Virus record (IMG/VR): IMGVR_UViG_3300025889_018307
Location: 20,311-84,310 of that record
DNA length: 64,000 nt
From: a virus
Strand: one strand, 5' to 3'
Position numbers and translations under genes: made by a program. The notes beneath the pieces were generated by a model. It ran no database searches and was not told the DNA's origin. It saw only the letters and a program-made list of their open reading frames with translations. Positions 13,601 to 54,019 of the stretch are shown here, piece after piece. The number at the start of each line of letters is the position of its first letter. Within the stretch, counting starts at the first letter, position 1.

Positions 13601-13825
13601 ATGAGTTGGAAAGAAATTTTTAAAGATGAAAATGAATATAATGAAAAATCTATAGTTGGTTTCATTGCATTCCTAATGATGGTAGTTGTAATGGTAGCTG
13701 ATTTAATAACAGGATGGATTGGAAAAGACTTAGTAATAAATGAATATATTTATGATTCATTTGTAATAGTAGTACTGGGATGTTTTGGTATTGCTGGTTT
13801 AGAAAAATTCGCAAACAGAAAATAA
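13601..13825 (+). CDS. Small two-span membrane protein, holin-like
   Basis: The 74-residue product has two hydrophobic segments (SIVGFIAFLMMVVVMVADLITGW and YDSFVIVVLGCFGIAGLEKF) with short charged ends. Size and topology resemble class II holins, and a wall-enzyme candidate lies one gene further downstream. There is no sequence signature for holins, so lysis is a hypothesis. It starts four bases after the large secreted protein. Confidence 0.5.
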   Translation: MSWKEIFKDENEYNEKSIVGFIAFLMMVVVMVADLITGWIGKDLVINEYIYDSFVIVVLGCFGIAGLEKFANRK

Positions 13826-14677: not shown

Positions 14678-15286
14678 ATGGACTGTTATACAAGAGAACA
14701 AATAGAAAATGCTATGGCTTCAAAAGGCTATAGATATTTTAAATCAGGAGATCTTAACCTTAATATTATAGGAGTTAGAAATTCAGAAACAAAAAATAGA
14801 GTCACAAATGCTTTTGATGATTGTATTACTTTATCTTATAAATTAGATGGTGAATGGAAATTTCATTGTTTTAAATGTACAACAGATCCAGGAACTCATT
14901 GGGTTGAAAATTTACTTAATCCTAATGGAGTAGCAATATTAAAACCAAATCAATATAGAGGTTCTCACAAAATAGGTTTACATCAAGGTAAATATGAAGC
15001 ATTAAGACAACAAAAACCATTAGAAGTTTATCGTGATGATAACCAGGATGGGATTTATGATTGTTTAGAAGAAGATGTTGAAAATGGTATTTTTGGAATT
15101 AACATTCATAGAGCAACAGCTAAAACTGGGGGCAAATCAACAAGAATAGATAAATGGTCAGCTGGTTGTCAAGTAATAGCATCAAATGATGATTTTGCTG
15201 TGTTTATGAAAATATGTAATCAAGCAAAAGATCTTTGGGGTAATTCATTTACTTATACTCTTATTGAGTCAAAAGATATTATTTAA
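14678..15286 (+). CDS. Predicted cell-wall enzyme with YkuD-like H/SxGC motif
   Basis: The 202-residue product shows GINIHRA with His144 and KWSAGCQVI with Cys164, spaced as in the His and Gly-Cys active site of L,D-transpeptidase (YkuD) folds. DDNQDGIYD at 120-128 looks like a calcium-binding loop. It has no signal peptide. It may cut or remodel host peptidoglycan, as an endolysin or modulator, and sits near small membrane proteins. The fold assignment rests on motif spacing, so the reaction is uncertain. Confidence 0.55.
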   Translation: MDCYTREQIENAMASKGYRYFKSGDLNLNIIGVRNSETKNRVTNAFDDCITLSYKLDGEWKFHCFKCTTDPGTHWVENLLNPNGVAILKPNQYRGSHKIGLHQGKYEALRQQKPLEVYRDDNQDGIYDCLEEDVENGIFGINIHRATAKTGGKSTRIDKWSAGCQVIASNDDFAVFMKICNQAKDLWGNSFTYTLIESKDII

Positions 15287-18688: not shown

Positions 18689-18696
18689 AAATAATT

Positions 18697-18725
18697 ATGA
18701 ACCACGCATTGTTCATAGATGCGTG
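18697..18725 (+). promoter_or_regulatory. Two overlapping, mutually exclusive hairpins
   Basis: ATGAAC at 18697-18702 can pair with GTTCAT at 18711-18716, and CACGCAT at 18703-18709 can pair with ATGCGTG at 18719-18725. Each pairing uses the other's loop or arm, so only one can form at a time. The second hairpin has only a weak T-rich tail. It may be a weak terminator or an attenuator-like switch at the end of the upstream transcript. Confidence 0.4.
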
Positions 18726-18740
18726 AGTTTCTCAACTTAG

Positions 18741-18772
18741 TGTGGCTATGCGAATTTAAATTCGTATATTGC
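18741..18772 (+). promoter_or_regulatory. Promoter of the structured-RNA / barrel cassette
   Basis: TGTG at 18741-18744 and TATATTGC at 18765-18772 are 20 bases apart. A perfect 14-bp palindrome, CGAATTTAAATTCG, fills 18751-18764 directly before the -7 box and could bind a dimeric regulator. Transcription would begin near 18778 and run into the stem-loop at 18782. Confidence 0.65.
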
Positions 18773-18781
18773 ATAAATACA

Positions 18782-18842
18782 TTTTGGAAAAAATGTTAAA
18801 GGATGCCACACGAAAAGTGGCATTCGCTACGTTTTTCCAAAA
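18782..18842 (+). ncRNA. Candidate structured RNA (two-stem arm)
   Basis: TTTTGGAAAAA at 18782-18792 pairs fully with TTTTTCCAAAA at 18832-18842 (11 bp). Inside it, GGATGCCAC at 18801-18809 pairs with GTGGCATTC at 18817-18825 (nine pairs, one G-U) around the loop ACGAAAA. The internal loop is 8 and 6 bases. It lies just after a promoter and within the 5' leader of the barrel gene at 18903, so it may be a small RNA, an mRNA-stabilising leader or a protein-binding site. No Rfam family is recognised. Confidence 0.55.
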
Positions 18843-18853
18843 AGTATAAAAGT

Positions 18854-18876
18854 ATATATGGGACGGTCCCATATAT
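18854..18876 (+). promoter_or_regulatory. Perfect 23-base palindrome upstream of barrel gene
   Basis: ATATATGGGAC and GTCCCATATAT are exact inverse complements around one central G. The right arm runs into a TATATTTA (18872-18879) that resembles a -7 box, though no good TTTG lies 20 bases before it. It may be an operator for a dimeric protein. The gene start is 27 bases downstream. Confidence 0.5.
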
Positions 18877-18902
18877 TTATTTGTTTAATTAAAATCAAAA
18901 AA

Positions 18903-19313
18903 ATGAAAAGAATGATTTTATGTTTAACTTTAGGGCTAGGTTTAGCTTTTGGAGTGAACGCACAGGAGAAAGGTGACTGGTACATTGGTACAGGTGACAT
19001 TTCTAGCAAAGCATGGACTGAGTGGTCCGTAAATCCAACAGTTGGATATGGAGTAACTGATAACCTTATGATAGGTGTTAACATTTCTCAAGCTGATTCA
19101 ACTGCTGATCAAGTTATTGACGCGCATGCAAGATACTTCGTAAGAGGTTACTTTGTATATGCATCAGCACCAAACTTAGATACAGATATGCTAAGTATAG
19201 GTCTTGGTAAAATGTTTACAGTACACAAAGGAGTCTTTGTAGATCCTAAAGTTGTTTACAACACAGGTGAGAAAACGACTAATTTACAATTAGGCGTAGG
19301 TCTTAAATTTTAA
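18903..19313 (+). CDS. Small secreted outer-membrane barrel-like protein
   Basis: The start at 18903 gives a textbook signal peptide (MILCLTLGLGLAFGVNAQ), ending Ala-Gln as in Bacteroidota exports. The 115-residue mature part alternates short beta strands (NPTVGYGVTDNLMIGVNIS, ARYFVRGYFVYA, LSIGLGKMF, NLQLGVGLKF) and ends in Phe, like a small eight-strand barrel. Codon use is less AT-extreme than its neighbours, suggesting transfer from a host or selection for strong expression. A role in surface change or superinfection exclusion, like Lom/Ail proteins, is inferred from layout. Confidence 0.65.
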   Translation: MKRMILCLTLGLGLAFGVNAQEKGDWYIGTGDISSKAWTEWSVNPTVGYGVTDNLMIGVNISQADSTADQVIDAHARYFVRGYFVYASAPNLDTDMLSIGLGKMFTVHKGVFVDPKVVYNTGEKTTNLQLGVGLKF

Positions 19314-19340
19314 ACTAATTATTAACCAAAAACTAAAAAA

Positions 19341-19571
19341 ATGGAAAAGGTATTTTCGTATTTAAATGGATTTTTAGGTGGATTAGGGTCATTATTCTTG
19401 GCTTTAGTTCCTGTAACAATCCTATGGTTCGTCTTAACAGGTGGATCGGTTTTCGGGATGGATGTAGTAGCTAATATTACTGCTCTTGTAAGTGCACTAG
19501 GTAATGGTGGATTTGTAGGATTAGTAGTACTAGTAATTCTTGCATCTTTTTTCGTAGGAAACAAAAAATAA
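19341..19571 (+). CDS. Small two-span membrane protein of the cassette
   Basis: The 76-residue product is almost entirely hydrophobic, with two spans (GFLGGLGSLFLALVPVTILWFVL split by Gly/Pro, and GFVGLVVLVILASFFVG) and a basic end (NKK). It follows the secreted barrel gene and precedes a strong terminator, so the two genes form one transcript. Holin-like size and Gly-rich spans are noted, but its position outside a lysis block makes an envelope-modifying role as likely. No family recognised. Confidence 0.55.
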   Translation: MEKVFSYLNGFLGGLGSLFLALVPVTILWFVLTGGSVFGMDVVANITALVSALGNGGFVGLVVLVILASFFVGNKK

Positions 19572-19593
19572 GTTTAAAATAACATATTTTGGG

Positions 19594-19624
19594 AAAGGGC
19601 GCTATTAAGCGCCTTTTCTTTTTC
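19594..19624 (+). terminator. Intrinsic transcription terminator
   Basis: GGCGCT at 19598-19603 and AGCGCC at 19608-19613 form a GC-rich stem with loop ATTA, extended by AAAG/TTTT pairing, and followed by the T-rich tract TTTTCTTTTTC ending at 19624. This is the clearest rho-independent terminator in the window. The next promoter begins 11 bases later. Confidence 0.9.
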
Positions 19625-19634
19625 TATGAAAGCA

Positions 19635-39692: not shown

Positions 39693-41123
39693 ATGAAAGA
39701 AGGTTATATTAAAAAAGAAGATAGAAAAAAAATACTTCTTATAACAGATGATATTAGAGTTCATTCTGGAGTTGCCCAGATAGGTAGAGAAATTGTTTTA
39801 AATTCAAGTCATCGCTATAATTGGACTTGCATAGCAGGAGCAGTTGAACATCCTGAGGAAGGTAAAGTTATAGATATTTCACAAGAATTAAATAATTCTA
39901 ATGGATTAGAAGATTCCCATTGCCTTTTATACCCAGCTAAAGGTTATGGTAATATGGATTTAGTAAGAGTAATAATACATAGAGAAAAACCAGATGCGAT
40001 TTTATTAATTACTGATCCTAGATATTTTTCTTGGTTATTCCATAATGAAGACCAAATTAGAAAAGAAATACCAATTGGCTATCTTAATATTTGGGACAAC
40101 TACCCAGCTCCAATGTATAACAAAGAATTTTATGAATCTTGTGATTTACTAATGGGTATATCAAAACAAACAGTTAATATTAATAAGTTAGTTTTGGGTG
40201 ATAAAGGTAAAAATAAAATATTTAAATATGTTCCCCATGGGTTAAATAATAACAAATTTAACATATTAGAAGATGATGATATTGAATTAACTTCTTTTAA
40301 TAAGAATATAGGATTATCTGAAGATAACAAATTTCATTTATTATTTAATTCAAGAAATATTAGAAGAAAACAAGTATCTAATATTATAATGGCTTGGAAA
40401 TTATTTATAGATAAATTATCTCCTGAAGAGGCTAAAAAATGTCAACTTACATTAAAAACCGAAGCTATATTTGAACACGGAACAGATTTAAATGCTGTTA
40501 TAGAATATTTTTGCGATCCTGAAATTTGTAGAGTAGGAATTTTACAACATAAATTAACAACAGAGGAAATGAACTTATTATATAATTCTGCTGATGGTGT
40601 AATTCAAATATCAAATGCTGAAGGTTGGGGATTATCTTTAACTGAAGCTATGTTAACAGGTACACCTTTCATTGCTGCTGTTACTGGGGGTATGCAAGAC
40701 CAAATGCGTTTTGAAGATGAAAAAGGTAATTGGATTGAATTTAATGGTGAATTTCCTTCTAACCATCATGGTAAATATAAAAAACATGGTGAGTGGGCAT
40801 TACCTGTTTACACAGCAGCAAGTACGTTAGTAGGATCCCCTCCAACACCATACATATATGATGATCATCATAATCTTAATGATGTAGTTGATCAGATAAT
40901 GAAGTTGTATAAAATGAGTGATAAAGAAAGAAAATCAATTGGTAAAAAAGGATATGAATGGGCTACAAGTGATGAAGCTGGGTTTACTTCTGAAAAAATG
41001 ACTGAAAAAGTTATTGATGGGTTTGAAGAATTATTTCAAACCTGGAAACCAAGAGAAAAATATAATTTCTTAAAAGATACAGATTACGAAAAAAGAGTTT
41101 TACCACATAAATTAGTTTATTAA
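39693..41123 (+). CDS. Glycosyltransferase, GT4 type
   Basis: The first gene of the sugar island. The 476-residue product has a GT-B fold pattern: early ILLITDDIRVHSGVAQIGRE, VPHGLNNNKF, LLFNSRNIRRKQVSNII, and the donor-binding AEGWGLSLTEAMLTGTPFIA. It would transfer a sugar from a nucleotide donor to a growing glycan or to a protein or DNA. It is followed two bases later by a second GT-B enzyme. The acceptor is unknown. Confidence 0.8.
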   Translation: MKEGYIKKEDRKKILLITDDIRVHSGVAQIGREIVLNSSHRYNWTCIAGAVEHPEEGKVIDISQELNNSNGLEDSHCLLYPAKGYGNMDLVRVIIHREKPDAILLITDPRYFSWLFHNEDQIRKEIPIGYLNIWDNYPAPMYNKEFYESCDLLMGISKQTVNINKLVLGDKGKNKIFKYVPHGLNNNKFNILEDDDIELTSFNKNIGLSEDNKFHLLFNSRNIRRKQVSNIIMAWKLFIDKLSPEEAKKCQLTLKTEAIFEHGTDLNAVIEYFCDPEICRVGILQHKLTTEEMNLLYNSADGVIQISNAEGWGLSLTEAMLTGTPFIAAVTGGMQDQMRFEDEKGNWIEFNGEFPSNHHGKYKKHGEWALPVYTAASTLVGSPPTPYIYDDHHNLNDVVDQIMKLYKMSDKERKSIGKKGYEWATSDEAGFTSEKMTEKVIDGFEELFQTWKPREKYNFLKDTDYEKRVLPHKLVY

Positions 41124-41125
41124 AT

Positions 41126-42451
41126 ATGAAAAATACATTTATTATAAGTTGCCCAATTGACACATATAGTGGATATGGAGCAAGATCAAGAGATTTAGTT
41201 AAATCTATTATAGAATTAGATAAATATGATGTTAAAATTTTAAGCCAAAGGTGGGGGCAAACTCCTTTTGGATTTGTCAATGATCATCCTGAATGGCATT
41301 TTTTAAAAAATCATATGATTAATAGTCTTAACCAAAAACCAGATATCTGGGCTCAAATTACAGTTCCTAATGAATTCCAGGCTATAGGGAAATTTAATAT
41401 AGGGTTTACAGCAGGAATAGAAACTACATTATGTGCCGCTCCATGGATTGAAGGTATGAACAGAATGGATTTAAATATAGTTTCATCAGAACATTCAAAA
41501 CAAGTATTTTTGAATTCTAAATTTAATAAAGTAGACCCAAAAACTAATCAAAATATAGGTGTTGTAGAAATGCAAAAACCTATAGAAGTATTATTAGAAG
41601 GTGCTAATTTAAACATATATAAGCCTATTGAAGAAGATGAAATTACAGAATTAAATTTACTAAAGGATATTAATTCAATTCCTGAGGATTTTGCCTTTTT
41701 ATCTGTTGGACATTGGATGCAAGGGAGTATGGGTGAAGATAGGAAAAATATAGGAGTTACTCTTAAATCTTTTTATGAAACATTTAAAAATAAAAAGAAA
41801 CAACCAGCATTAATTTTAAAAACATCTTCAGTTAATTCTTCATATATGGATAGAAGAGAAATTATGAAAAGAGTAAATGCAGTTCGCAGTAGTTGTGAGG
41901 GAAAATTACCTAATGTTTATATATTACACGGTAATTTTACTAATGAAGAAATGAATGAATTGTATAATCATCCTAAAATTAAAGCAATGGTATCTCATAC
42001 TAGAGGAGAAGGATTTGGAAGACCTTTATTAGAATTTAGTTTAGTAAATAAACCTATTATATGTTCAGGATGGTCTGGACAATTAGATTTTTTACAAAAT
42101 GATTTTACATTATTATTACAAGGAGCTTTAACTAATGTTCATCCTTCTGCCCAACAGAAAGATATGATACTTGCAGAATCTCAATGGTTTCAACCTAACC
42201 CTCAAGAAATACATAGAGCTTATAAAGAAATATTTGATAATTATAAAACTTGGGTAATTAAAGCAAAAAGACAAGGATATTATAGTAGAACTTATTTTGC
42301 TTTTGAAAATATGAAAGCTAAAATTATAGAAATTTTAGACAAGAATGTTAAAATTGTAGAAGAAGTTGCTTTAAATTTACCAAAACTTAAAAAAATAGAA
42401 AATAAACAAAAATTACCTAAATTAAAACTACCTAAATTAAGCAAAATATAA
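41126..42451 (+). CDS. Glycosyltransferase, GT4 type
   Basis: The 441-residue product has FIISCPIDTYSGYGARSRD near the start, the middle FLSVGHWMQG and the donor motif RGEGFGRPLLEFSLVNKPII. The C-terminal 30 residues are Lys/Leu/Pro repeats (LPKLK, LPKLKLPKLS), possibly for membrane or partner binding. It overlaps the next gene by one base. Confidence 0.78.
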   Translation: MKNTFIISCPIDTYSGYGARSRDLVKSIIELDKYDVKILSQRWGQTPFGFVNDHPEWHFLKNHMINSLNQKPDIWAQITVPNEFQAIGKFNIGFTAGIETTLCAAPWIEGMNRMDLNIVSSEHSKQVFLNSKFNKVDPKTNQNIGVVEMQKPIEVLLEGANLNIYKPIEEDEITELNLLKDINSIPEDFAFLSVGHWMQGSMGEDRKNIGVTLKSFYETFKNKKKQPALILKTSSVNSSYMDRREIMKRVNAVRSSCEGKLPNVYILHGNFTNEEMNELYNHPKIKAMVSHTRGEGFGRPLLEFSLVNKPIICSGWSGQLDFLQNDFTLLLQGALTNVHPSAQQKDMILAESQWFQPNPQEIHRAYKEIFDNYKTWVIKAKRQGYYSRTYFAFENMKAKIIEILDKNVKIVEEVALNLPKLKKIENKQKLPKLKLPKLSKI

Positions 42452-42909
42452 TGGATGAATTAATACTATGCCCTAAATGTGGTTCTGATGCTTGTTACAA
42501 ACAAGAAGTAAATGAAAAAATTACTAATTATATGTGTTATGGTTGTGGTTTTATTTCAAATACTTTAATGAAAGATGGTGAAGAATATTGGGAACAACAA
42601 TTAATGTCACTTCCTGAGTTATACAAAGATTTAATATATAAAGATAAAAATGACCAATATTGGATTCCTAATACTGTAAACCAACCAGAATTAGGAATGG
42701 TGTTTGTTAATGGTTCAGATAAAGATAATTGGTCTTGGGCTGCTGTAAAAGCAATTGAAGTTGAGGAAAAAGATAAAATAAAATACCCAATTCCTGGAAA
42801 ATCCGGTGAATATTATAAACATAGAATGGATATGGAAAATTTAAAATCTTTCGACCCAGAACGTGGTTATATGGATGCACTTTCGTATATTGGGGTATTA
42901 CCTGAATAA
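42451..42909 (+). CDS. Zinc-ribbon protein of unknown function
   Basis: The 152-residue product begins with a zinc ribbon, ILCPKCGSDACYKQE and MCYGCGFIS (two Cys pairs). The rest has no family, with a mixed region DLIYKDKNDQYWIPNT, then VFVNGSDKDNWSWAAVKAI. It is inserted between glycosyltransferases. It may bind nucleic acid or a protein, but no role in sugars is evident. Confidence 0.55.
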   Translation: MDELILCPKCGSDACYKQEVNEKITNYMCYGCGFISNTLMKDGEEYWEQQLMSLPELYKDLIYKDKNDQYWIPNTVNQPELGMVFVNGSDKDNWSWAAVKAIEVEEKDKIKYPIPGKSGEYYKHRMDMENLKSFDPERGYMDALSYIGVLPE

Positions 42910-42917
42910 ATAATAAT

Positions 42918-43550
42918 ATGAAAATAAGTTATGCTATTCCTGTTTGTAATGAAATAAATGAATTACAAAGATTAGTTGATTTTTTATTAAAACATAAACG
43001 TGAAGAAGATGAAATTGTTATTTTATTTGATTCACAAAATGGTTCTAAAGTAGTTGAAGAATATTTAAGAGCTAAAACAATAAATACTAAATCACCATTT
43101 GTATGGTATTCTAACTCTTTAAATAATAATTTTGCTAATCAAAAAAATTATCTTGGTAAGATGTGTAATGGAGATTGGATATTTTTAATTGATGCAGATG
43201 AATACCCAGATGAATACCTTTGTACAGCATTGCCTTGGATGATAGAAAATAATCCAGAGGTGGAAGCATATGCGATTTCTAGAATAAACACAGTTTCAGG
43301 ATTAACAACAGAACATGTACAAAAATGGGGATGGGGTATTAATGATAGAGGTTGGGTTAATTTCCCTGATAAGCAAATGAGAATTTATAAAAATGATCCT
43401 GATAGAATTAAATGGATAAATCCAGTACATGAACAACTTACAGGTTTTAATAAATTTTCACATTTACCTAGTAATGAAGAATATTGCCTATATCACCCCA
43501 AAGACATAGAAAGACAAGAAAGACAAAATAATTTTTATGAAACACTCTAA
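42918..43550 (+). CDS. Glycosyltransferase, GT2 type
   Basis: The 210-residue product is a short GT-A enzyme: ISYAIPVCNEINELQRLVD, FANQKNYLGKMCNGDWIFLIDADE with the D-x-D metal site, and YHPKD at the end. It would add a sugar with inversion. It overlaps the next gene by 14 bases. The acceptor and donor are unknown. Confidence 0.78.
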   Translation: MKISYAIPVCNEINELQRLVDFLLKHKREEDEIVILFDSQNGSKVVEEYLRAKTINTKSPFVWYSNSLNNNFANQKNYLGKMCNGDWIFLIDADEYPDEYLCTALPWMIENNPEVEAYAISRINTVSGLTTEHVQKWGWGINDRGWVNFPDKQMRIYKNDPDRIKWINPVHEQLTGFNKFSHLPSNEEYCLYHPKDIERQERQNNFYETL

Positions 43551-44355
43551 AATAGGATTTACTTGTAGTACATTTGATCTTCTACACCCAGGACATATTT
43601 TAATGTTAAAAGATTGCAAAAATCATTGTGATTATTTAATAGTGGGGTTACAAACAGACCCTACTATAGATAGAAAGGATAAAAATAATCCTATTCAAAC
43701 TTTAGAAGAAAGATTTTTGATGATTAGTTCAATAAAATATGTTGATGAAGTTAGAATATATTCAACCGAAGAGGATTTAATTAAATTAATTAATAATATT
43801 AAACCTGATATTAGAATAATAGGATCAGATTGGGAAGGTAAAAAAATAACAGGATTTGATTTATCCCCTATTTATTTTCATAATAGGAATCATAATTATT
43901 CAACTACTAATTTAAGAAAAAAGATAGTAGATAATCAAAATCCAAGATTAAATGCTTCTGAAATACATAATAGTGTAAAAATAATAAATCCTGTAAATTT
44001 ATATGGATGTAAAATAGGAAAAGATAGTTTTATAGGTCCTTTTGTTGAAATACAAAATAATGTAAAAATAGGAAATAATACAAGAATAAGTAGTCATTCA
44101 TTTATTTGTAGTAGTGTTGAAATTGGAAATAATTGTTTTATAGCTCATGGGGTTATGTTTGTAAATGATAATTTTACTGAGGAGAGAGAAAATTGGATTG
44201 AAAGAAAGACAAAAATTGGTGATAATGTAAGAATAGGAAGTAACGCAACTATTTTACCCGTAAATATAGGAAATAATGTAGTAATAGGAGCTGGCGCTGT
44301 CGTAACTAAAGACGTCCCAGACAATTCAATAATAAAAGGAAATCCAGCAAAATAA
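43537..44355 (+). CDS. Fusion of a cytidylyltransferase-like domain and a hexapeptide-repeat acyltransferase
   Basis: The first half (to about residue 135) is a nucleotidyltransferase of the glycerol-3-phosphate/heptose type with STFDLLHPGHILML (HPGH motif) and the late YSTTNLRKKI. The second half (from about residue 145) is a left-handed beta helix of hexapeptide repeats (CKIGKDSFIGPFVEI, VEIGNNCFIAHG, IGDNVRIGSNATIL, VVIGAGAVVTKDV). It probably activates a sugar phosphate and acetylates the sugar. The fusion is unusual. It overlaps the next gene by one base. Confidence 0.78.
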   Translation: MKHSKIGFTCSTFDLLHPGHILMLKDCKNHCDYLIVGLQTDPTIDRKDKNNPIQTLEERFLMISSIKYVDEVRIYSTEEDLIKLINNIKPDIRIIGSDWEGKKITGFDLSPIYFHNRNHNYSTTNLRKKIVDNQNPRLNASEIHNSVKIINPVNLYGCKIGKDSFIGPFVEIQNNVKIGNNTRISSHSFICSSVEIGNNCFIAHGVMFVNDNFTEERENWIERKTKIGDNVRIGSNATILPVNIGNNVVIGAGAVVTKDVPDNSIIKGNPAK

Positions 44356-45137
44356 TGAAAATATCAATAATACATAATTTATATAAACGTAATCCTTATG
44401 TAAATGAATCCATACAATATAATATTTTAGCTTTAGAAGAAGCTAAAGTTGATTATCAATATATTCTTTTTAATGATAAGGGTGATAAAGATATCTATGA
44501 TGATGTTAAAAATCTCCTAAATAATAAAGTTGAATATTATTATAGTAAAACAAATTATGGGATGGGGAAATGTAGTGGGGGTTGGATAGGCGCAATTCCA
44601 TTATTAGAGGGAGATATTGTACATAATACAGGACAGGATGATGTGTTTGTAGCTGATTTTTATAAAAAAGTAAAAGAAACATTTTCAAATCCTGAAATAA
44701 TGTTTTTTAGTTGTAATGGTATAAGAACTGATGAAAATTTAAATCAACAGGGCCCTATGATTCCTCCTCAATATCAACCTGATTATTCAAAACCTTTAGA
44801 TAGATTTAAAGAATGGTTTGGAATTATTGGAAATGAAATTACTCAAACTAATAATGGTATGTTAGCTCCTGGTACTTTATATCGAAAAGAAATTCACGAC
44901 ATAATAGGTCCTCCTTCACTTAATGAATTTTTTGGAGTTTGTGATTTTGAATATTGGGCACGAATGTTATTTTTTGAAATTAAGGGATATTATGAATCTT
45001 CTCCTTTATGGTTATATAGAATATCAAACCATTCAATAAGTCATAGTGAAAAAATAGAAAATAAGGATCATAGACCTCCTTATTTACAAAAAGTTAAAGA
45101 AAAATATACACAGTTATGGAAAGAAAAAATGCAATAA
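44355..45137 (+). CDS. Glycosyltransferase-like, GT2 type
   Basis: The 260-residue product has an N-terminal Rossmann-like part (ISIIHNLYKRNPYVNESI), GKCSGGWIGAIPLLEGDIVHNTGQDDV with a D-D metal-type pair, and GVCDFEYWARMLF. This resembles a GT-A enzyme acting on a glycan. No closer family is recognised. It overlaps the next gene by 22 bases. Confidence 0.6.
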   Translation: MKISIIHNLYKRNPYVNESIQYNILALEEAKVDYQYILFNDKGDKDIYDDVKNLLNNKVEYYYSKTNYGMGKCSGGWIGAIPLLEGDIVHNTGQDDVFVADFYKKVKETFSNPEIMFFSCNGIRTDENLNQQGPMIPPQYQPDYSKPLDRFKEWFGIIGNEITQTNNGMLAPGTLYRKEIHDIIGPPSLNEFFGVCDFEYWARMLFFEIKGYYESSPLWLYRISNHSISHSEKIENKDHRPPYLQKVKEKYTQLWKEKMQ

Positions 45138-46045
45138 TAAGTGGAGGAGCAGGTTTTATAGGAGGACATTTATCATTAAGATTACTTAAAGAGGGTTTTA
45201 ATAAAGTTTATTTAATAGATAACTTAGTAAGAACTAATAGTTTAAGAAACATATCTAAAGATAAAAAAATTGAATTTATTTATGGTGATATTTGTAATTT
45301 TGACTTTACTGTATTAAATGATATCACTCATTTTTTTCATTTAGCAGCAACTCGAATTAATAGATGTGCTGCTTATAATAAGGAAGGACATGATTATATA
45401 GCATCTGGGGGATTTAACGTAGTAGATTATTGTGCTAAAAATAATATCAAATTATTTTTCTCTAGTACAGCTAGTGTATATAACAAACCAAAACGTCAAC
45501 CTATACAAGAAGATGATCCTTGTACACCCCATACAATATATGGAGCTGGAAAATATTATACAGAAAATTTAATACGCAGTTATGATAATATGGTGGGGTT
45601 AGATTATACTATTAATAGATTTTTTAGTGTATATGGAGTAGGAATGGATTGTGAAGGAGCATATACTGAAGTAATATTTAACTGGTTAAATAATATAAAA
45701 AATAATAATAAAAATATAAAAGTATTTGGGAATCCAGATAAAAAAATATTAGATTTAGTTTATGTTGATGATGTTATTGATGCTATTATGTTATCAACAT
45801 TTAACTCTAATAAAGAAGTATTTAATGTGTCTACTCAAAATGGAGTAACATTAACAAAACTAATTAGTACAATTGAAGATGTAACTAATACTAAATTAAA
45901 TGTTGAGATAGTTCCTGAAAATAGAACAGATATAGAAAATAAAAGAGTTGGAGATACAACAAAATTAAAAAAATTAGGATGGGATCCTAAGTACAATCTT
46001 AAAGATGGAATTATTAGTACTAATGATTGGATAAAAAATAATTAA
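45116..46045 (+). CDS. NAD-dependent sugar epimerase/dehydratase
   Basis: The 309-residue product has the short-chain fold: SGGAGFIGGHLSLRLL (Gly-rich NAD loop), FHLAATRINRC, FFSSTASVYNKPKR, and the catalytic TIYGAGKYYTENL Tyr and Lys. It modifies a nucleotide sugar, such as UDP- or ADP-sugar. The substrate cannot be fixed. It overlaps its neighbours by 22 bases and one base. Confidence 0.82.
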   Translation: MERKNAIISGGAGFIGGHLSLRLLKEGFNKVYLIDNLVRTNSLRNISKDKKIEFIYGDICNFDFTVLNDITHFFHLAATRINRCAAYNKEGHDYIASGGFNVVDYCAKNNIKLFFSSTASVYNKPKRQPIQEDDPCTPHTIYGAGKYYTENLIRSYDNMVGLDYTINRFFSVYGVGMDCEGAYTEVIFNWLNNIKNNNKNIKVFGNPDKKILDLVYVDDVIDAIMLSTFNSNKEVFNVSTQNGVTLTKLISTIEDVTNTKLNVEIVPENRTDIENKRVGDTTKLKKLGWDPKYNLKDGIISTNDWIKNN

Positions 46046-46710
46046 TGATACAAATAATAGACAAACCTTTAAAAGAATTAAAAATAGGAATTATAGGCTT
46101 TAGGAGAAGTTTTATAAAAACAGCTTTAAATAAATTTAATTTATCTTATACTTATATTAATAATAAGAATATAGAAGAAAATGAATATGATATTATTTTT
46201 GGGTCTGGAGTGTATAATATTCTTTCTGAAGAATTTATAAAAAAACCTAAATATGGATGTTTTTTTATCCATGAAAGTCCTTTACCCGAAGGAAGAGGAC
46301 ATGCTCCTATTCAATGGGCATTAGAAAATAAAAGAAAAAATTTAACATTATCCCTATTTAAGGTATTACCTGGAATTGATGATGGTAATATAGTTTACCA
46401 ACATAATAAAGAAATAAATAAATTTGATACTGTTGAGTCAATAGAACAAAAAAGACTAGAGGGAATTACTGAATGTTTTGAATTATTTTTAGAAGAATTA
46501 TCTAAGGGTGTGATAGTATTAAGAAAACAAACAGGTAAATCAAGTTATAACCCTAAACGCAATCCATCAAATTCAGAAATTAAATCTATCCCTAATGTTG
46601 ATTTATTTTGGGATGAATTAAGAATGTGTGATAATGAAAAATACCCAGCCTTTTTTAAAATAGGAAATAAAAAAATAACATTAAAATATTCTATAGATGA
46701 TTATAAGTAA
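46045..46710 (+). CDS. Sugar N-formyltransferase-like protein, catalytic Asn replaced
   Basis: The 221-residue product resembles formyltransferases that formylate amino-sugars: FIHESPLPEGRGHAPIQWAL, then PGIDDGNIVYQ and SSYNPKRNPSNSEI. His76 and Asp112 or Asp113 are in place. The Asn two residues before the His, seen in PurN-type enzymes, is Phe74 here. With Gmd and a DegT aminotransferase in the same island, it fits formation of an N-formyl amino sugar. Activity is uncertain because of the Asn loss. Confidence 0.65.
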   Translation: MIQIIDKPLKELKIGIIGFRRSFIKTALNKFNLSYTYINNKNIEENEYDIIFGSGVYNILSEEFIKKPKYGCFFIHESPLPEGRGHAPIQWALENKRKNLTLSLFKVLPGIDDGNIVYQHNKEINKFDTVESIEQKRLEGITECFELFLEELSKGVIVLRKQTGKSSYNPKRNPSNSEIKSIPNVDLFWDELRMCDNEKYPAFFKIGNKKITLKYSIDDYK

Positions 46711-47599
46711 ATGCCCATTAAGAGTTTCATTAGTAGGAGGATCTACTGATTTGCAATCTTTTATTAATAAATATGGGTATGGACAAGTAATTAGTTTTCC
46801 AATATCTTTGTATACTTATATTTCTTTATCTAAAAGATATGATAATAAGTATGTTATTAATTATACTAGGAGAGAAAATGTAAAATCACCTGATAAAATT
46901 AAAAATGATATAGCAAGAGAATTAATTAAATATTTTAACCTACCACCTCTTACAATTACATTTAATGCAGATATCCCAGCAGCTGGTAGTGGGTTAGCAG
47001 CATCCTCTTCATATATGGTTGCAGCTGTAGCAGCTGCTTGTAAGTTTAAAGAACTAAAATGGTCACAAGCTGAAATATGTAAAGTAGCTCATGAAATAGA
47101 ATTAAAATTTAACCCATTAACTGGTTATCAAGATACTTATGGTTGTGGTTTACCATCATCAAAATTAATGGTTTTTGAGGGTACTAATGTTAATGTAAAA
47201 TTTATAAAGCTCCCAGAATATAAGATGTATTTATATAATACAGAAGTAAAAAGATCATCAACTAATATTCTTAAAACTATTGATGTAATAAAAAGTTATC
47301 CTTTATTAGAATTAGTAGATAAAACTTATAATTCACTTAATAACCCTAATAAATTTTTTAAGTTATTAAGAGATTCTTGGAATACTAAAAAGCAAACATC
47401 AAACGAGATTTTAAATAATAAAGAATTATCTATTTTAGATGATAAATTAGAAAAAGATTCATCTATAAAATTTCATAAATTATGTGGAGCTGGGGGTGGT
47501 GGGTATTTTTTAACAATAGTAGATGGAAAAACCAACATTAAAAATAATAAAATAAAAATTAATATAGATAATAAAGGAGTAGTAGTATGGGAAATTTAA
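46697..47599 (+). CDS. GHMP-family sugar kinase (heptose 7-phosphate kinase-like)
   Basis: The 300-residue product begins SKCPLRVSLVGGSTDL, with the ATP motif NADIPAAGSGLAASSSYMVA and a late KLCGAGGGGYFLTIV. This is the pattern of HddA-type kinases for D-glycero-D-manno-heptose 7-phosphate and of related fucose/galactose kinases. With the SIS isomerase at 50289 and the cytidylyltransferase-like domain at 43537 it suggests a heptose-type sugar route. Overlaps on both sides. Confidence 0.75.
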   Translation: MIISKCPLRVSLVGGSTDLQSFINKYGYGQVISFPISLYTYISLSKRYDNKYVINYTRRENVKSPDKIKNDIARELIKYFNLPPLTITFNADIPAAGSGLAASSSYMVAAVAAACKFKELKWSQAEICKVAHEIELKFNPLTGYQDTYGCGLPSSKLMVFEGTNVNVKFIKLPEYKMYLYNTEVKRSSTNILKTIDVIKSYPLLELVDKTYNSLNNPNKFFKLLRDSWNTKKQTSNEILNNKELSILDDKLEKDSSIKFHKLCGAGGGGYFLTIVDGKTNIKNNKIKINIDNKGVVVWEI

Positions 47600-48315
47600 A
47601 AACAATAGTATTAGGTACCCCCTCAGGGGGAAGTTCATTTACCTATAAGGTAATAGAAGAGTATTTAAAAAAAATAAATCCTAATTTAAATAGTTGCCAT
47701 GAGCCTTCAATGATACAACCTTTAACTTATTGGTGGGAACAATTTAAATCTTTTAAAGAAGTAGAGGATAATTTTGACATAGCATTAAATCATTATAATA
47801 AATTTTCAAATTCTGATCTTATAAAAGTAAATTATTATACTAGATTTTTAAATAAAAATTTTATAAAAAATGAAAATTTAATATTTGTTATTAGAGCTCC
47901 TTGGCAGTGGGCTAAAAGTAGTTTAAGCATGAGATTTGGTGAAAATTACTTTTATTGGATGACTTATGATAATAAAAATTTAGGTAAAGATAATTTTAAA
48001 CATATTATAGATCTATGGATAGAAATATATAATCAGGTATGGAATAATATGAAAAACTATAACAATAATATTTTATATTTAAATTATTATGATTATGTTG
48101 ATAATTATAAATTTTTAGAAGAATTATTAAATAATTTTTATAAACCCCAAAATTATATAACAATAAATGATTACACAAATAAACAATTAGTTCATACAAA
48201 CAAAAGAAGATCTAAAGGTGAAACTATTAAGGATATAAATCCTAATTATAAAGATTATAGATTAGATGAAATAAAAAGTATATTTTCAAATTTTAAAATT
48301 AAGTTAGATGTCTAA
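47587..48315 (+). CDS. Sulfotransferase-like protein
   Basis: The 242-residue product has VLGTPSGGSSFTYKVI at the start, like the 5' phosphosulfate-binding loop, and LIFVIRAPWQWAKSSLSMRF like the 3' region. It may sulfate a sugar in the island, or be a kindred glycan-modifying enzyme. The gene is extremely AT-rich. A second, distinct protein of this kind lies at 21631. Overlaps by 8 and 13 bases with neighbours. Confidence 0.6.
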   Translation: MGNLKTIVLGTPSGGSSFTYKVIEEYLKKINPNLNSCHEPSMIQPLTYWWEQFKSFKEVEDNFDIALNHYNKFSNSDLIKVNYYTRFLNKNFIKNENLIFVIRAPWQWAKSSLSMRFGENYFYWMTYDNKNLGKDNFKHIIDLWIEIYNQVWNNMKNYNNNILYLNYYDYVDNYKFLEELLNNFYKPQNYITINDYTNKQLVHTNKRRSKGETIKDINPNYKDYRLDEIKSIFSNFKIKLDV

Positions 48316-49153
48316 AATATTATTAATAGGTTGTGGTTATTGGGGAAAAAATTGGTATAAAACCATAAAAAATTCTAAATATGATTTAGTAGGTGTTGTT
48401 GATCCTTCACCTGTTATAGACGTTGATATACCATTATTTAACAATATAAGTGATGTAAATATTGAGTATACTCATGTTATTTTAGCAGTAAATGCTAAAC
48501 TTCATAGTGAAATTGTAAAACAATTAAATATCCCACAAGAAAATATTTTAGTTGAAAAACCATGTGGAGTTAATATAAATGATGCAGAATTAATCAAGGA
48601 TTCATTCCCAGGATATATATTTTTATACTCAGATGAGTACCAATACATTAAAAAGAATTTAAACAAAATAGGAAAACCCCAATACTGGAAAAGTATTAGA
48701 GCATCAATGGGTCCTAAAGTTAGGTCTGATGTTTCTATTTTAGAAGATTATATGATTCATGATTTATACATTTACAGAGATTTATTTGGTGAATGTGAAG
48801 TATTTAATAAATATTGGAATAAAGAATTTGCTCCACCTATAAAATATAGTTCTTTACATTTAGAATTAAGGGGAAAAATTCCTGGTTATTTTTATTCTTC
48901 TTGGAATTATCCTATAAAAGAAAGAAAAATTATTATAAAGGGAGATAAAGGAAGTTTCATATGGGAAAATGATGATTTATATTATGATAGTACTCATTAT
49001 ATTAATAATGAGGTTATTGAAGGTATTTGTGAAAAAATTACAACTACTCCTAAATCAAATTTGGATCTTGAATTAGAATTTTTTATATTGGGGAGAAAAC
49101 CAAATGTGGATATTTTAGATATTTGGTCATTAATAAATGTTATAAATAAATAA
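48308..49153 (+). CDS. Gfo/Idh/MocA-like oxidoreductase
   Basis: The 281-residue product starts with the nucleotide fold MSKILLIGCGYWGKNWYKTI, then GVVDPSP, HVILAVNAKLHSEIVKQL and ENILVEKPCGVN (the EKP motif). Together these mark NAD(P)-dependent sugar oxidoreductases. It probably oxidises or reduces a nucleotide sugar intermediate. It is followed three bases later by the DegT aminotransferase, its frequent partner. Confidence 0.8.
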   Translation: MSKILLIGCGYWGKNWYKTIKNSKYDLVGVVDPSPVIDVDIPLFNNISDVNIEYTHVILAVNAKLHSEIVKQLNIPQENILVEKPCGVNINDAELIKDSFPGYIFLYSDEYQYIKKNLNKIGKPQYWKSIRASMGPKVRSDVSILEDYMIHDLYIYRDLFGECEVFNKYWNKEFAPPIKYSSLHLELRGKIPGYFYSSWNYPIKERKIIIKGDKGSFIWENDDLYYDSTHYINNEVIEGICEKITTTPKSNLDLELEFFILGRKPNVDILDIWSLINVINK

Positions 49154-49156
49154 ATT

Positions 49157-50302
49157 ATGAAAATACCATTAGGAAAACCTTATCTTAAAGAGGAAGCAGC
49201 ATTAGAAAAAATTAAAGAAGTACTAGAATCAAGATGGATCAGTGGTGGTCCTCGTATAAAAGAATTTGAAGATTGTATTCAAGAATATAATAATGATCCT
49301 GAAGGACATTATGTAGCAGTAGCTAATGGAACTGTAGCTATTGAAATGGGATTATTAGCAATTAATGGAGGTAAAAGACTAAAATCAACTGATGAAGTTA
49401 TAGTACCTTCTTGGAGTTGGGTTGCTAGTGGGTTTGCAGTTAATAATGCTGGAGGAACTCCAGTTTGGTGTGATGTAAATGAATATGGTGTTCCTTACAT
49501 AGAAGATATAAAATCTAGAATTACACCTAATACTAAAGCAATCATTTTAGTTCATCAAATGGGGATTCCTTGTGATTTAGATGCCTTTAAAGAATTAAAT
49601 ATTCCTATTATAGAAGACTCAGCATGTGCTTTAGGTAGTGAATATAAAGGAAGAAAAATAGGAAATAGTGATAACATAGTAACATATTCATTCCAAGCTA
49701 GAAAATGTTTAACAACTGGTGAAGGTGGAATGATAGTTGTAAGAGATAAAGACATAGCTGAGTGGTTAAAATCTTACAGAGCATTTGGTACTAATATCTC
49801 ACCATTAGCAAGAGATAAAGCTAAATTTTTACTTAAAGAACAATTTAATTTTATAGGTAATAATCTAAAAATGGCTGATATTCCCTGTGCATTAGGTATA
49901 TCACAAATAAGATTTTTTGATGAAGAAGTAGAATTAAGAAGTGAAGCAGGAGAATATTATAATTATTTAATCAATGAACAATTACATGATTATGGGGTTT
50001 CTATTGGTAATATTGTTCCTGACTATTGTACTAGATATAATTGGCAAAATTTTCATTTAATTTTAGATGATAAGTATAATAGAGATCAAGTTGTAGATTT
50101 ATTAAGAAAAAGAAATATAGGTTGTAAATGGGATATCCAAGCAATTCATGTTGAACCAGCTTATAATGCAAATGTAGATTTATCTCAAACTATGAAGTAT
50201 CATAATAATGGTATGTGGTTAGGATTTTATGCTGAAATAACAAGAGAAGAACAAGAATATGTTATTAATAATCTAAAAGAAGTATTAGATGAACTTAGAT
50301 AA
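49157..50302 (+). CDS. DegT/DnrJ/EryC1/StrS aminotransferase
   Basis: The 381-residue product is a full-length PLP-dependent sugar aminotransferase: SRWISGGPRIKEFE, VAVANGTVAIEMGLL, SWSWVASGFAVNNAGG, IIEDSACALGS and SFQARKCLTTGEGG, with the PLP-binding Lys. It adds an amino group to a keto-sugar, for example the product of Gmd at 54020, giving perosamine. A short second copy is at 53384. Substrate is not proven. Confidence 0.88.
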   Translation: MKIPLGKPYLKEEAALEKIKEVLESRWISGGPRIKEFEDCIQEYNNDPEGHYVAVANGTVAIEMGLLAINGGKRLKSTDEVIVPSWSWVASGFAVNNAGGTPVWCDVNEYGVPYIEDIKSRITPNTKAIILVHQMGIPCDLDAFKELNIPIIEDSACALGSEYKGRKIGNSDNIVTYSFQARKCLTTGEGGMIVVRDKDIAEWLKSYRAFGTNISPLARDKAKFLLKEQFNFIGNNLKMADIPCALGISQIRFFDEEVELRSEAGEYYNYLINEQLHDYGVSIGNIVPDYCTRYNWQNFHLILDDKYNRDQVVDLLRKRNIGCKWDIQAIHVEPAYNANVDLSQTMKYHNNGMWLGFYAEITREEQEYVINNLKEVLDELR

Positions 50303-50780
50303 ATTACAATTAGAAGTAAGTAAAATAACTGAGGATGAAAAAAATTTGTTAGGTTATTTTATAAATAACCATAATGAAATTATTATAATAGGAAATGGAG
50401 GTAGCAATTCTATTGCATCACATATATCTCAAGATTATACTAAAGTTTTAGATAAAAAATCATATAGCTTTTCTGATCCTTCAAGATTAACTTGTTATAT
50501 AAATGATTATGGTAGAGATAATGCTTATGCAGAATTTTTAGATGATTTTGCTGGTAAAGATACACTAGTTATTTTAATTTCTTCATCAGGAAATTCTATG
50601 AATATAATTAATGCAGCTAAGTATTGTGAAGATAATGGTATTGTGTATTTAGCTTTAACTGGTTTTGATAAAGATAATAAATTAAATAATATGAATCCTG
50701 TATGGAGATGGCATGTTGATTCAGATGATTATGGTATAGTAGAATGTGTTCATCAAATAATATTACACTCAATATTATAA
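50289..50780 (+). CDS. SIS-domain sugar isomerase (GmhA-like)
   Basis: The 163-residue product is a small SIS protein: IIIIGNGGSNSIASHISQDYTKVL, SFSDPSRLTCYINDYGRDNAY and LVILISSSGNSMNIINAAKY. The order and length fit phosphoheptose isomerase GmhA, which makes heptose 7-phosphate from sedoheptulose 7-phosphate. It supports a heptose-like route with the kinase at 46697. It overlaps upstream by 14 bases. Confidence 0.82.
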   Translation: MNLDKLQLEVSKITEDEKNLLGYFINNHNEIIIIGNGGSNSIASHISQDYTKVLDKKSYSFSDPSRLTCYINDYGRDNAYAEFLDDFAGKDTLVILISSSGNSMNIINAAKYCEDNGIVYLALTGFDKDNKLNNMNPVWRWHVDSDDYGIVECVHQIILHSIL

Positions 50781-51196
50781 TGGAAAAAATATATTCAAAA
50801 ATAGATGGTAGACTATTACATATTGTAAATAGATTATCTGAAATTGAAGGTAGAACTGAAATTATACCAGAAGATAATTTTATTCAATGTGCTACTTTGG
50901 AAATGGAAAATGGAAAAACATTTCCACCCCATAAACATATAACTAAAGATAGACATTATCCTGAACAAATAGCTCAAGAATCGTGGGTAATAATTAAAGG
51001 AAAAGTAAAATGTAAATTTTATGATATTGATGATACACTAATCGCAGAACCTATATTAGAACCAGGTGATGCTAGTTTTACCTTATATGGGGGTCATACT
51101 TATGAAATATTAGAAGATAATACTATTGTGTATGAATACAAAACAGGTCCATATGAAGGACAAAAACTAGATAAAACATTTATCAATGAAAAGTAA
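50780..51196 (+). CDS. Cupin-fold protein
   Basis: The start at 50780 (overlapping the upstream stop as TAATG) is chosen over an upstream codon at 50744. The 138-residue product has a cupin pattern: FPPHKHITKDRHYPEQIAQESWVIIKGKVKCKF and later EPGDASFTLYGGHTYEIL, with His residues for a metal. It could be a sugar isomerase-like or epimerase-like enzyme, or a small-molecule binder. No exact family. Confidence 0.6.
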   Translation: MEKIYSKIDGRLLHIVNRLSEIEGRTEIIPEDNFIQCATLEMENGKTFPPHKHITKDRHYPEQIAQESWVIIKGKVKCKFYDIDDTLIAEPILEPGDASFTLYGGHTYEILEDNTIVYEYKTGPYEGQKLDKTFINEK

Positions 51197-52136
51197 AAAA
51201 GTAGTATTTTCTTTAAAACATAGACATCACAAAAATTTAAATGATTATAGCTCAGCTATAATTTATTGGTATGGGGTTTTAGATAGATTAGGATATGAAG
51301 TATTATATTATGATTATGATGAATATAATATTGATGATTTATATAATACTATAAAAGAATTTGATGCTGATTTTTTTATTCATACTAATTATTTGGTGGG
51401 GGTCCATAAAGAATTTAATAAAATAAGAGAATTATGTAAAGTATTCCTTTTATCAAGTGATGCTTATAGATTCCATGATTCTCATCTAAAACATTGGATA
51501 CCTTTTGTTGATGGGATTATTACGTTTGAAGGGGTAAAAGAATGGTATTTAAGAGATGGTTTACCTGAAGAAGGATTTTTAAAAATGAAGTGGGGATTTA
51601 ACCCTAACACTATGTGTACTGAAGATGTTAATAATAAATCTATTAATATTCATCATTATGGGGGATTACATGGAGGAAGAGATTATAAAATTTCTCAATT
51701 TAATCAATTAGGTTGCAAAATTCATCAGGAAGATTTTATAACACATGATGAAATGAAAAAAAACCTAGCTAAATCAAAATATTCATTGTGTTTTAGTTCT
51801 AATGCTATTGGAACTAGAAATGAGTTAAAAGGTAGAGTAATAGAAATTCCTTCACAAGCAGTTTTACTAACCGAACCCGCACCTGAATTAGATACTTATT
51901 TTGATGAAGATGAAATTATTATATTTAATAGTGTAGAAGAAGCTGCAGATAAAATAAATTCTATTACAGATAAGGAATATAATAATATTTTAAGAAAAGG
52001 ACAAAAAGCATTATGGAATAGGAATACTGTATATCATGAATGGAATAAAATTTTACCACTAATGGATCCAGATTATAAACCTATAGATCCAATAGATATA
52101 ATTAAAAAATACCACAATGAGTACTATAAAGTTTAG
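51186..52136 (+). CDS. Glycosyltransferase-like protein (CgeB/GT-B type)
   Basis: The 316-residue product has the C-terminal pattern of a GT-B enzyme used in CgeB-like and spore-type transferases: KSKYSLCFSSNAIGTRNELKGRVIEI, SQAVLLTEPAPELDTYF and the late IIIFNSVEEAADKI. The N-terminal half has a Rossmann-type look. Its sugar is unknown. It overlaps the next gene by 20 bases. Confidence 0.65.
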   Translation: MKSKKVVFSLKHRHHKNLNDYSSAIIYWYGVLDRLGYEVLYYDYDEYNIDDLYNTIKEFDADFFIHTNYLVGVHKEFNKIRELCKVFLLSSDAYRFHDSHLKHWIPFVDGIITFEGVKEWYLRDGLPEEGFLKMKWGFNPNTMCTEDVNNKSINIHHYGGLHGGRDYKISQFNQLGCKIHQEDFITHDEMKKNLAKSKYSLCFSSNAIGTRNELKGRVIEIPSQAVLLTEPAPELDTYFDEDEIIIFNSVEEAADKINSITDKEYNNILRKGQKALWNRNTVYHEWNKILPLMDPDYKPIDPIDIIKKYHNEYYKV

Positions 52137-52539
52137 ACCTGTAGAGGAAAAAGATTGGAAAGATGTTTATTATCTTTTAAATCAACTAACAGAATTATTA
52201 GGAACGATTAGAGATAAAAAAGTATGTTGGAATAGATTTATATCAAATAATTCTAATAATGCTATTGTAGGTTTACATAATGATCAAATTATTGCTTATG
52301 GAAGTATAGTTATAGAAAATAAAATAAGAGGAGAACTAGCAGGTCATATAGAAGATATAGTTGTAGATAAAAAATTTAGAGGAAAAAATATTGGTGTAAA
52401 ACTTATTAAAGAATTAGTAAAAATTGGTTATAGTAAAGAATGTTATAGAATAACATTAACTTGTGATCAATCATTAATTAATTTTTATTATAAAAATGGT
52501 TTTAAAGTTAATAACATTGCAATGAAAAAACACTTATAA
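52117..52539 (+). CDS. GNAT acetyltransferase, GNA1-like
   Basis: The 140-residue product has GHIEDIVVDKKFRGKNIGVKL and CYRITLTCDQ followed by LINFYYKNGFK. This is the acetyl-CoA fold and closely parallels glucosamine 6-phosphate N-acetyltransferase (GNA1). It would acetylate an amino-sugar. It could equally use another amine. Ends one base into the next start. Confidence 0.78.
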   Translation: MSTIKFRPVEEKDWKDVYYLLNQLTELLGTIRDKKVCWNRFISNNSNNAIVGLHNDQIIAYGSIVIENKIRGELAGHIEDIVVDKKFRGKNIGVKLIKELVKIGYSKECYRITLTCDQSLINFYYKNGFKVNNIAMKKHL

Positions 52540-53384
52540 TGAATTACGGAAGAATACATTTTGAAGGAACTCCTAGTGCTGGGTTTTTTAGTAATTATTT
52601 TGGTGTAATGTCTACTATGTTAGATTTACATCATAATCATAAATTATTCCCCTATGTAGATAATTCGAATACTTGGTGGAATCCAACATTTAATTTTGAA
52701 ACCTTAACAGCAGAAGATTTAAATATTAATCCTTGGGATTGGTGGTTTCAACAAGATAAACCTCTTAATATTAAAGAATGTCCTAATATAAAAGTTAATT
52801 ATAGTAATATTTCTCATGTACCCAATCAATTCCATCAAAACCCATCATTACCCTATGCTAGAGAAATGGATTTAAAATATTGTAAATTACAATCTCATAT
52901 TACACTTGAAATAAATACATTATTTGAAAGATATTTTGCAAATAAAAATATTTTAGGGGTTATGGCACGAGGTACTGAAATGTTAAAATTCCATAAAGAG
53001 TATCCAAAAGTAAATTCTAATGTGTGGGGGCATATTATCAAAGATTTTTTAAATGACCATCCTGATATTGATAATATATTTTTAGTTACAGATGATAATG
53101 AAATATTAAGTAATATTTTAAAACATCATCCTCAAACTATTTATTTAAAAGATTTTTTTAGAAAAACAACCCAAACAAATGAGGAAATTAATAATAAATA
53201 TAAACCTTGGTGGTTAACATCTCCATCTAATGATCCTAACCACAGAAAAAGATTAGGTGAAGAATGTATAATTCAAGCAAAACTTCTTTCTAAATGTCAG
53301 TCTCTTTTAGGAACATATTCAGGGTTTACTAATGCCGCTCAATTTTTTAACCATAGTGGATTTAAAAGTTTTTATCTTATATAA
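52539..53384 (+). CDS. Fucosyltransferase-like GT-B protein
   Basis: The 281-residue product has GVMARGTEMLKFHKEYPKV, DNIFLVTDDNEILSNIL, TIYLKDFF and EECIIQAKLLSKCQSLLG followed by TYSGFTNAA. These are in the order of alpha-1,6/1,2-fucosyltransferases (NodZ-like), where an Arg and the final SGF motif bind GDP-fucose. Gmd in the same island makes a GDP-fucose precursor. The donor remains unproven. Confidence 0.58.
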   Translation: MNYGRIHFEGTPSAGFFSNYFGVMSTMLDLHHNHKLFPYVDNSNTWWNPTFNFETLTAEDLNINPWDWWFQQDKPLNIKECPNIKVNYSNISHVPNQFHQNPSLPYAREMDLKYCKLQSHITLEINTLFERYFANKNILGVMARGTEMLKFHKEYPKVNSNVWGHIIKDFLNDHPDIDNIFLVTDDNEILSNILKHHPQTIYLKDFFRKTTQTNEEINNKYKPWWLTSPSNDPNHRKRLGEECIIQAKLLSKCQSLLGTYSGFTNAAQFFNHSGFKSFYLI

Positions 53385-54016
53385 TGAGTTTTGAGAGTAT
53401 AAAAATATTTGAAAATAAAATAGCTGAATTTTTTGGTGCACCATATGCTGTGGCAGTAGATTGTTGCACTCATGGAATTGAATTATGTTTAAGATATAAT
53501 AATATTAGTTATATAAACTGTCCTACAAGAACATATATTTCAGTTCCTTTTTTATCAGAAAAATTAGGTATACAATTATTTTGGAGAGATGAAGAATGGA
53601 AAGATTATTACTATCTAACTAAAGATCTTACACCAGTAATAGATGCTGCTGTGTTATGGAAAAAAAATAGTTATATACCTGGAACTTTTATGTGTTTGAG
53701 TTTTCAATTTAAAAAACACTTGGCTTTGGGAAGAGGAGGTTGTATATTAACAGATAATAAAGAAGCAGCATTAGAATTAAAAAAGATGTCTTATGATGGA
53801 AGACACCCAGATATACCTTGGAGAGAACAAGATATAGAAACTATGGGGTATCATTACTATATGACACCTGAAACTGCTGAGTTAGGTTTAAAAAAGTTAC
53901 CTGATGCAATTGAAAAGAAACCAACACAATGGACAATTAATGATTGGCCTGATGTATCAAAAATGAAAGTTTTTAATAAAACAGAGGAAATAGATCCTTA
54001 TTTACAAACAAAATAA
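53384..54016 (+). CDS. Compact DegT-type aminotransferase homologue
   Basis: The 210-residue product is only about half of a normal DegT enzyme but keeps the core: IAEFFGAPYAVAVDCCTHGI, TPVIDAAVLW with the PLP-type Asp87, and SFQFKKHLALGRGG with Lys111 in the PLP position (GRGG for GEGG). The usual large C-terminal domain is replaced by a short tail. It may be a reduced enzyme or a lectin-like relic. It overlaps its neighbour by one base. Confidence 0.68.
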   Translation: MSFESIKIFENKIAEFFGAPYAVAVDCCTHGIELCLRYNNISYINCPTRTYISVPFLSEKLGIQLFWRDEEWKDYYYLTKDLTPVIDAAVLWKKNSYIPGTFMCLSFQFKKHLALGRGGCILTDNKEAALELKKMSYDGRHPDIPWREQDIETMGYHYYMTPETAELGLKKLPDAIEKKPTQWTINDWPDVSKMKVFNKTEEIDPYLQTK

Positions 54017-54019
54017 AAA

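Follow-up and report, generated by a model that had tools for sequence, protein, structure and literature searches.

What a phage gains from carrying a compact block of envelope genes, and where it would obtain them, is the question raised by one short locus in the 64,000-nucleotide stretch of viral DNA analysed here (the window), which is part of an 84.3-kb IMG/VR virus record. The block sits between an upstream gene that ends at 18688 and a downstream gene that starts at 19626, and comprises, in this order, a folded leader, an outer-membrane barrel gene, a small membrane-protein gene and a terminator (Table 1). An initial annotation had read it as a moron, that is, a gene block gained by the phage and acting apart from its main programme, with a plausible role in superinfection exclusion or surface change. 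No description of such a cassette was found in our literature searches.

Judging by its replication genes (UvsX, DnaB, ribonucleotide reductase, DNA polymerase, ligase) and by GroEL, the virus would be a phage of the T4 type. Among isolated phages, the closest relative found was Flavobacterium phage immuto (NC_055915), which shares 53.5% identity in DnaB and 57% in GroEL and has T4-type head genes. Elsewhere in the window, a long gene run at 39693-57086 including glycosyltransferases and an aminotransferase, similar to one annotated in immuto downstream of groEL, probably makes or alters surface polysaccharide. Furthermore, a 74-aa protein with two hydrophobic segments (13601-13825), near an endolysin-like gene at 14678-15286, is a candidate holin of this phage.

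Table 1. Features of the block, in coordinates of the window.
Feature	Position	Strand	Basis or remark
First leader hairpin (CACGCAT/ATGCGTG)	18703-18725	+	fold; 2 pairs changed on both sides, 5 relatives
Folded leader core	18740-18842	+	6 pairs changed on both sides (count takes in the hairpin at 18854), 5 relatives; 95% of cells paired
Core: GTGTGGC with GCCACAC	18740-18746 with 18805-18811	+	proposed pseudoknot
Core hairpin	18747-18768	+	
Core helix: TTTTGGAAAAA with TTTTTCCAAAA	18782-18792 with 18832-18842	+	
Core pairing: GTGGC with GCTAC	18817-18821 with 18826-18830	+	
Last leader hairpin, ATATATGGGA-CGG-TCCCATATAT	18854-18876	+	96% of cells paired
136-aa outer-membrane barrel with signal peptide (type 1, GDWYIGTGD)	18903-19313	+	AlphaFold2, homologues
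76-aa inner-membrane helical hairpin protein	19341-19571	+	AlphaFold2, homologues
Intrinsic terminator	19591-19620	+	13-bp stem and T-run; sole strict plus-strand match in window

A structured leader precedes the barrel gene

The RNA upstream of the barrel gene is structured, as had been claimed. The interval 18690-18905 has a folding energy of -67.3 kcal/mol, compared with -36.3 +/- 4.3 in shuffled sequences (z -7.26), and none of 200 shuffles folded as well; the strongly folded region extends over about 18700-18880 and thus begins some 40 bases upstream of the start first assigned to it. In relatives the barrel gene is preceded by a gap of median length 144 nt, other genes by one of 5 nt, and these upstream regions are more folded than controls. 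Among leaders of the window's class (class A) 6 pairs are changed on both sides, a count drawn from only five distinct sequences, whereas slid controls gave 0-1. The last hairpin is present in one or two copies among relatives, with a G-C to A-U change in two of them.

The pairing of GTGTGGC with GCCACAC would form a pseudoknot with the TTTTGGAAAAA/TTTTTCCAAAA helix, and it competes with a local GCCAC/GTGGC hairpin given by the energy model. In the leader of contig L131 three pairs of the local hairpin are broken, while all 7 proposed pairs are kept, one of them compensated. Covariation and the L131 pattern thus support the structure, with the pseudoknot as a proposal.

A second class of leaders (class B; pattern drawn from L040, L066, L118, L127, L130 and others) shows one 7-pair helix with 99% of cells paired and 2 pairs changed on both sides in at most five sequences. 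A long-range helix, P3, was also considered for class B and not adopted; it is well kept, yet shows no both-side changes and several broken pairs. The class B model finds class A leaders weakly (E 0.006 for the window, in 401 bases, and 0.24 for L004), which suggests, rather than shows, common descent of the two classes. When both patterns were searched in viral contigs, a barrel gene lay downstream in 29 of 29 readable cases; since class B leaders sit behind different upstream genes, leader and barrel travel together. The class B model gave no match in 52 host genomes under stricter filters, and an Rfam search of the leader gave none at or above the curated score. In other leader classes a different short motif, CAATAAAG, occurs in 30 of 68 leaders and in 5 of 237 controls. 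The motif CAATAAAGGTTA is common to the leaders upstream of the barrel gene in other phage groups (L005, L009, L012, L115 and others), and those of L115, L121 and L132 hold a helix that would cover an AAAGGAG ribosome-binding site. The leader may act in mRNA stability or translation control.

Terminator, promoter and codon use

The block has its own terminator, and the earlier statement that this is the only clear one in the window holds for the plus strand by a strict definition. A terminator-like site follows the membrane-protein gene in 44 of 56 relatives (79%), against 38 of 1090 other genes (3%; Fisher p 2e-45). The promoter also assigned to the block was not recovered: no promoter-like site stands out near 18741-18778, and the T4-late, sigma-70 and Bacteroidetes consensus sequences are not enriched before the barrel gene in relatives, although the promoter type of these phages may differ. 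The T4 late promoter TATAAATA is rarer in the window than expected (19 against 29) and likewise not enriched before the barrel gene.

The unusual codon use is real, as third-position GC ranks the barrel gene 2nd and the membrane-protein gene 7th among 83 window genes, and for the barrel gene its mean excess over the other genes of the contig is 2 s.d. (n = 69). Its reading as a mark of foreign DNA fared less well. The major capsid gene is also raised in five contigs, though less than the barrel gene, so that the GC-richer codons of the latter fit high expression better than foreign origin.

Two envelope proteins

The secreted barrel stood, with a corrected start. The ATG at 18858, chosen originally, falls within the last leader hairpin, and in most relatives the start corresponds to 18903, which we therefore take as the true start. 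The AlphaFold2 model comprises a signal helix and eight strands at moderate confidence (mean pLDDT 76), and thus predicts the eight-strand outer-membrane barrel and signal peptide that characterise the OmpX/Ail/Lom family. The closest solved structures are minimal 8-strand barrels with weak scores; a profile search of solved structures gave no significant match to OmpX/Ail (best E 0.63). Against Pfam OMP_b-brl the best member reaches 7e-6, with the window protein below the cut-off. Among viral contigs 119 stretches are related to the barrel, and the phage barrels fall into two types, type 1 including the window and type 2. Values of dN/dS (0.15-0.28) indicate purifying selection. The predicted surface loops are short, loops 3 and 4 alone vary more than the strands, and no sign of diversifying selection was seen.

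The membrane protein was confirmed as an open reading frame with two hydrophobic segments. Its model consists of helices 2-33 and 42-72 (mean pLDDT 83), and a fold search with it gave no match. Viral contigs contain 99 stretches related to it; its identity between widely differing phages is 51-99%, and it is under purifying selection (dN/dS about 0.07-0.36 where computable). In the isolated-phage collection there was no match to the barrel, of either type, or to the membrane protein.

The block moves as a unit among marine phages

The four parts of the block, from leader to terminator, are found together again and again in many gene neighbourhoods. Relatives of both proteins are adjacent in about 100 marine viral contigs and at least 8 neighbourhoods; the two genes are neighbours in nearly all relatives, with a gap mostly of 19-99 nt. 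The barrel was found without its partner in L051, L053, L066, L075, L078, L079 and L080, and the partner alone in L114. In one neighbourhood the pair is flanked on one side by the prohead protease gene and on the other by the gene preceding the major capsid gene, within a T4-type capsid operon (portal, protease and major capsid named by PHROGs); elsewhere the cassette is beside ligase, baseplate or DNA polymerase genes. A scan with the gene upstream of the block (window 17924) returned two contigs only.

Among contigs with enough sequence at the capsid-operon site, 50 of 59 have both genes, 3 the barrel and 6 neither; four of these six end inside further inserted genes and weigh little. In L313 and L315 the interval from protease to next head gene is free of the cassette and holds a small reverse gene. 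The capsid operon of immuto is colinear with the cassette-holding neighbourhood; the same interval is also empty in this phage, which has no homologue of the barrel or of the membrane protein. The comparison of relatives called for by the initial annotation thus finds conserved phage genes on both sides of the block or of its empty site, with the block present or missing as a whole, as expected of a moron, and no single gene order shared by all.

Parts of the cassette also exchange. L131 has a leader of the window's class and a membrane-protein gene like the others, yet carries a type-2 barrel, which indicates that the barrel is exchangeable. The leader of L003 is identical over 260 nt to that of L001 (window type), and its membrane-protein gene has no synonymous difference from that of the window, whereas in the flanking genes about 20% of synonymous sites are different; this points to a recent recombination event that involved part of the cassette. 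Contig L145, which had been binned as the archaeon Nitrosopelagicus, carries the phage barrel-membrane pair with phage genes and is probably a mis-binned phage contig.

Host homologues and origin

Homologues of the membrane protein occur in Flavobacteriales MAGs, mostly at 43-49% identity, with weaker ones in Planctomycetota. In hosts they are single chromosomal genes, most of them followed by a terminator-like hairpin. In one Flavobacteriales family (L333-L338) the gene lies beside polA, with a gene for a second small hydrophobic protein after it; these polA-side genes are perhaps a family of small membrane proteins. The host homologues of the barrel lie elsewhere on the chromosome, unlinked to those of the membrane protein. 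In the G006 family the barrel is found in 42 of 52 genomes and the membrane protein in 42 of 52. In the G002 family 14 genomes have both, 5 and 4 a single one and 58 neither; this co-occurrence (p 1.5e-8) may reflect shared descent, not joint function.

In the barrel trees type-2 phages form a supported clade beside the barrels of the G006 family, and type-1 phages, including the window, group with those of the G002 family across a long branch. As each type stands beside a different host clade, two separate captures from hosts, one per barrel type, would be the simplest reading, with the direction of transfer read from long-branched trees in which a large distance separates the type-1 host barrels from those of the phages. 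The idea of a gained block thus survives in a more specific form, as acquired envelope genes, since homologues of both proteins are encoded on the chromosomes of marine Flavobacteriales.

Discussion

Taken together, we tentatively favour the block as a transferable cassette with which T4-type phages of marine Flavobacteriales would remodel the host envelope, superinfection exclusion being the likeliest benefit. In the proposed mechanism two genes would have been captured from hosts, in separate events for each barrel type, and then joined; leader and codon choice would give strong expression. In the infected cell the barrel would be delivered to the outer membrane and the helical hairpin to the inner one, where both would displace or supplement the host versions, and the altered entry sites at the two membranes would keep competing phages out. 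Beyond the location in both membranes, envelope remodelling is what we infer as function, and exclusion would be its leading, plausible benefit. Short loops free of diversifying selection speak against it, since an arms race might be expected to leave such a trace, and the host homologues of the barrel may simply be structural proteins.

These conserved loops, together with purifying selection, agree better with envelope upkeep, in which the phage supplies abundant host envelope proteins after shut-off of host transcription, so that the cell would stay intact during a long lytic cycle, and excludes nobody. We consider this possible, if less probable; the resemblance of both proteins to near-universal proteins of one host family, the signature of strong expression and the capsid-operon position in one phage group all agree with it. 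By itself, however, upkeep explains neither the joining of the membrane protein with the barrel nor the exchange of barrel type behind the same leader class in L131. Because the pair targets both membranes at once and one barrel type can replace the other, we place exclusion slightly ahead.

The remaining readings are much less probable. A strict moron, expressed in lysogens to the benefit of the host cell like lambda lom and bor, would account for the terminator, the long leader gap and the variable insertion sites, a layout which does fit the term; the cassette, however, belongs to T4-type phages, in one group of which it is nearly fixed and located within the capsid operon, and no integrase was found among the part of the window genes that was searched. 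We thus hold this reading to be improbable. Near-fixation within the capsid operon indicates that the block is probably part of the lytic programme, contrary to the earlier view that it acts apart. A lysis module, with the 76-aa protein as a class-II-like holin and the barrel weakening the outer membrane, is a still weaker candidate: size, two helices and a basic tail recall small holins and the window has an endolysin-like gene, yet the homologues are ordinary chromosomal genes in Flavobacteriales, and the identity of the membrane protein across very different phages is high for holins, which are usually poorly conserved. Furthermore, a homologue of the holin annotated in immuto is present in four relatives with the barrel cassette (L130, L066, L078 and L079), in L130 together with the membrane protein itself, which makes a holin role unlikely. 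Least probable is a virion or assembly component; the pair is beside head genes in one neighbourhood, but beside ligase, baseplate or DNA polymerase genes in others, and signal peptide and host homologues also argue against it.

Known systems offer partial parallels. Lambda Lom, an OmpX/Ail-type 8-strand barrel moron, is likewise a small phage-borne outer-membrane barrel in its own block. It is expressed from the prophage (PMC7067206). The cassette differs in having no significant OmpX/Ail match, an inner-membrane partner and a T4-type rather than lambdoid setting. The Lc porin of phage PA-2 is a phage-encoded version of a host outer-membrane protein and reportedly changes the receptor profile; PA-2 is temperate and Lc a large trimeric porin, whereas the cassette encodes a minimal barrel and a partner protein. 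In T4, Imm and Sp provide superinfection exclusion, Imm by blocking DNA injection (PMC11436027). Imm resembles the 76-aa protein as a small membrane protein of a T4-type phage, but it has no barrel partner, and no sequence link of the 76-aa protein to Imm or Sp was shown. We know of no host homologue of T4 Imm.

A more far-reaching version of the favoured mechanism would be a two-membrane exclusion system built from captured host proteins under a new pseudoknotted leader family, traded as a unit by uncultured phages of the T4 type that infect marine Flavobacteriales, the barrel being swapped to match the host; as a whole we regard this as rather unlikely. The cassette proteins may serve as a host marker, pointing to marine Flavobacteriales for these viruses. 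Two bacterial-type envelope genes, unlinked on chromosomes, have been joined and have spread as a unit; the ocean phages that carry them are abundant, and most of the hosts are uncultured. The cassette also offers a candidate new structured RNA and a two-gene route to how lytic phages may alter the flavobacterial envelope.
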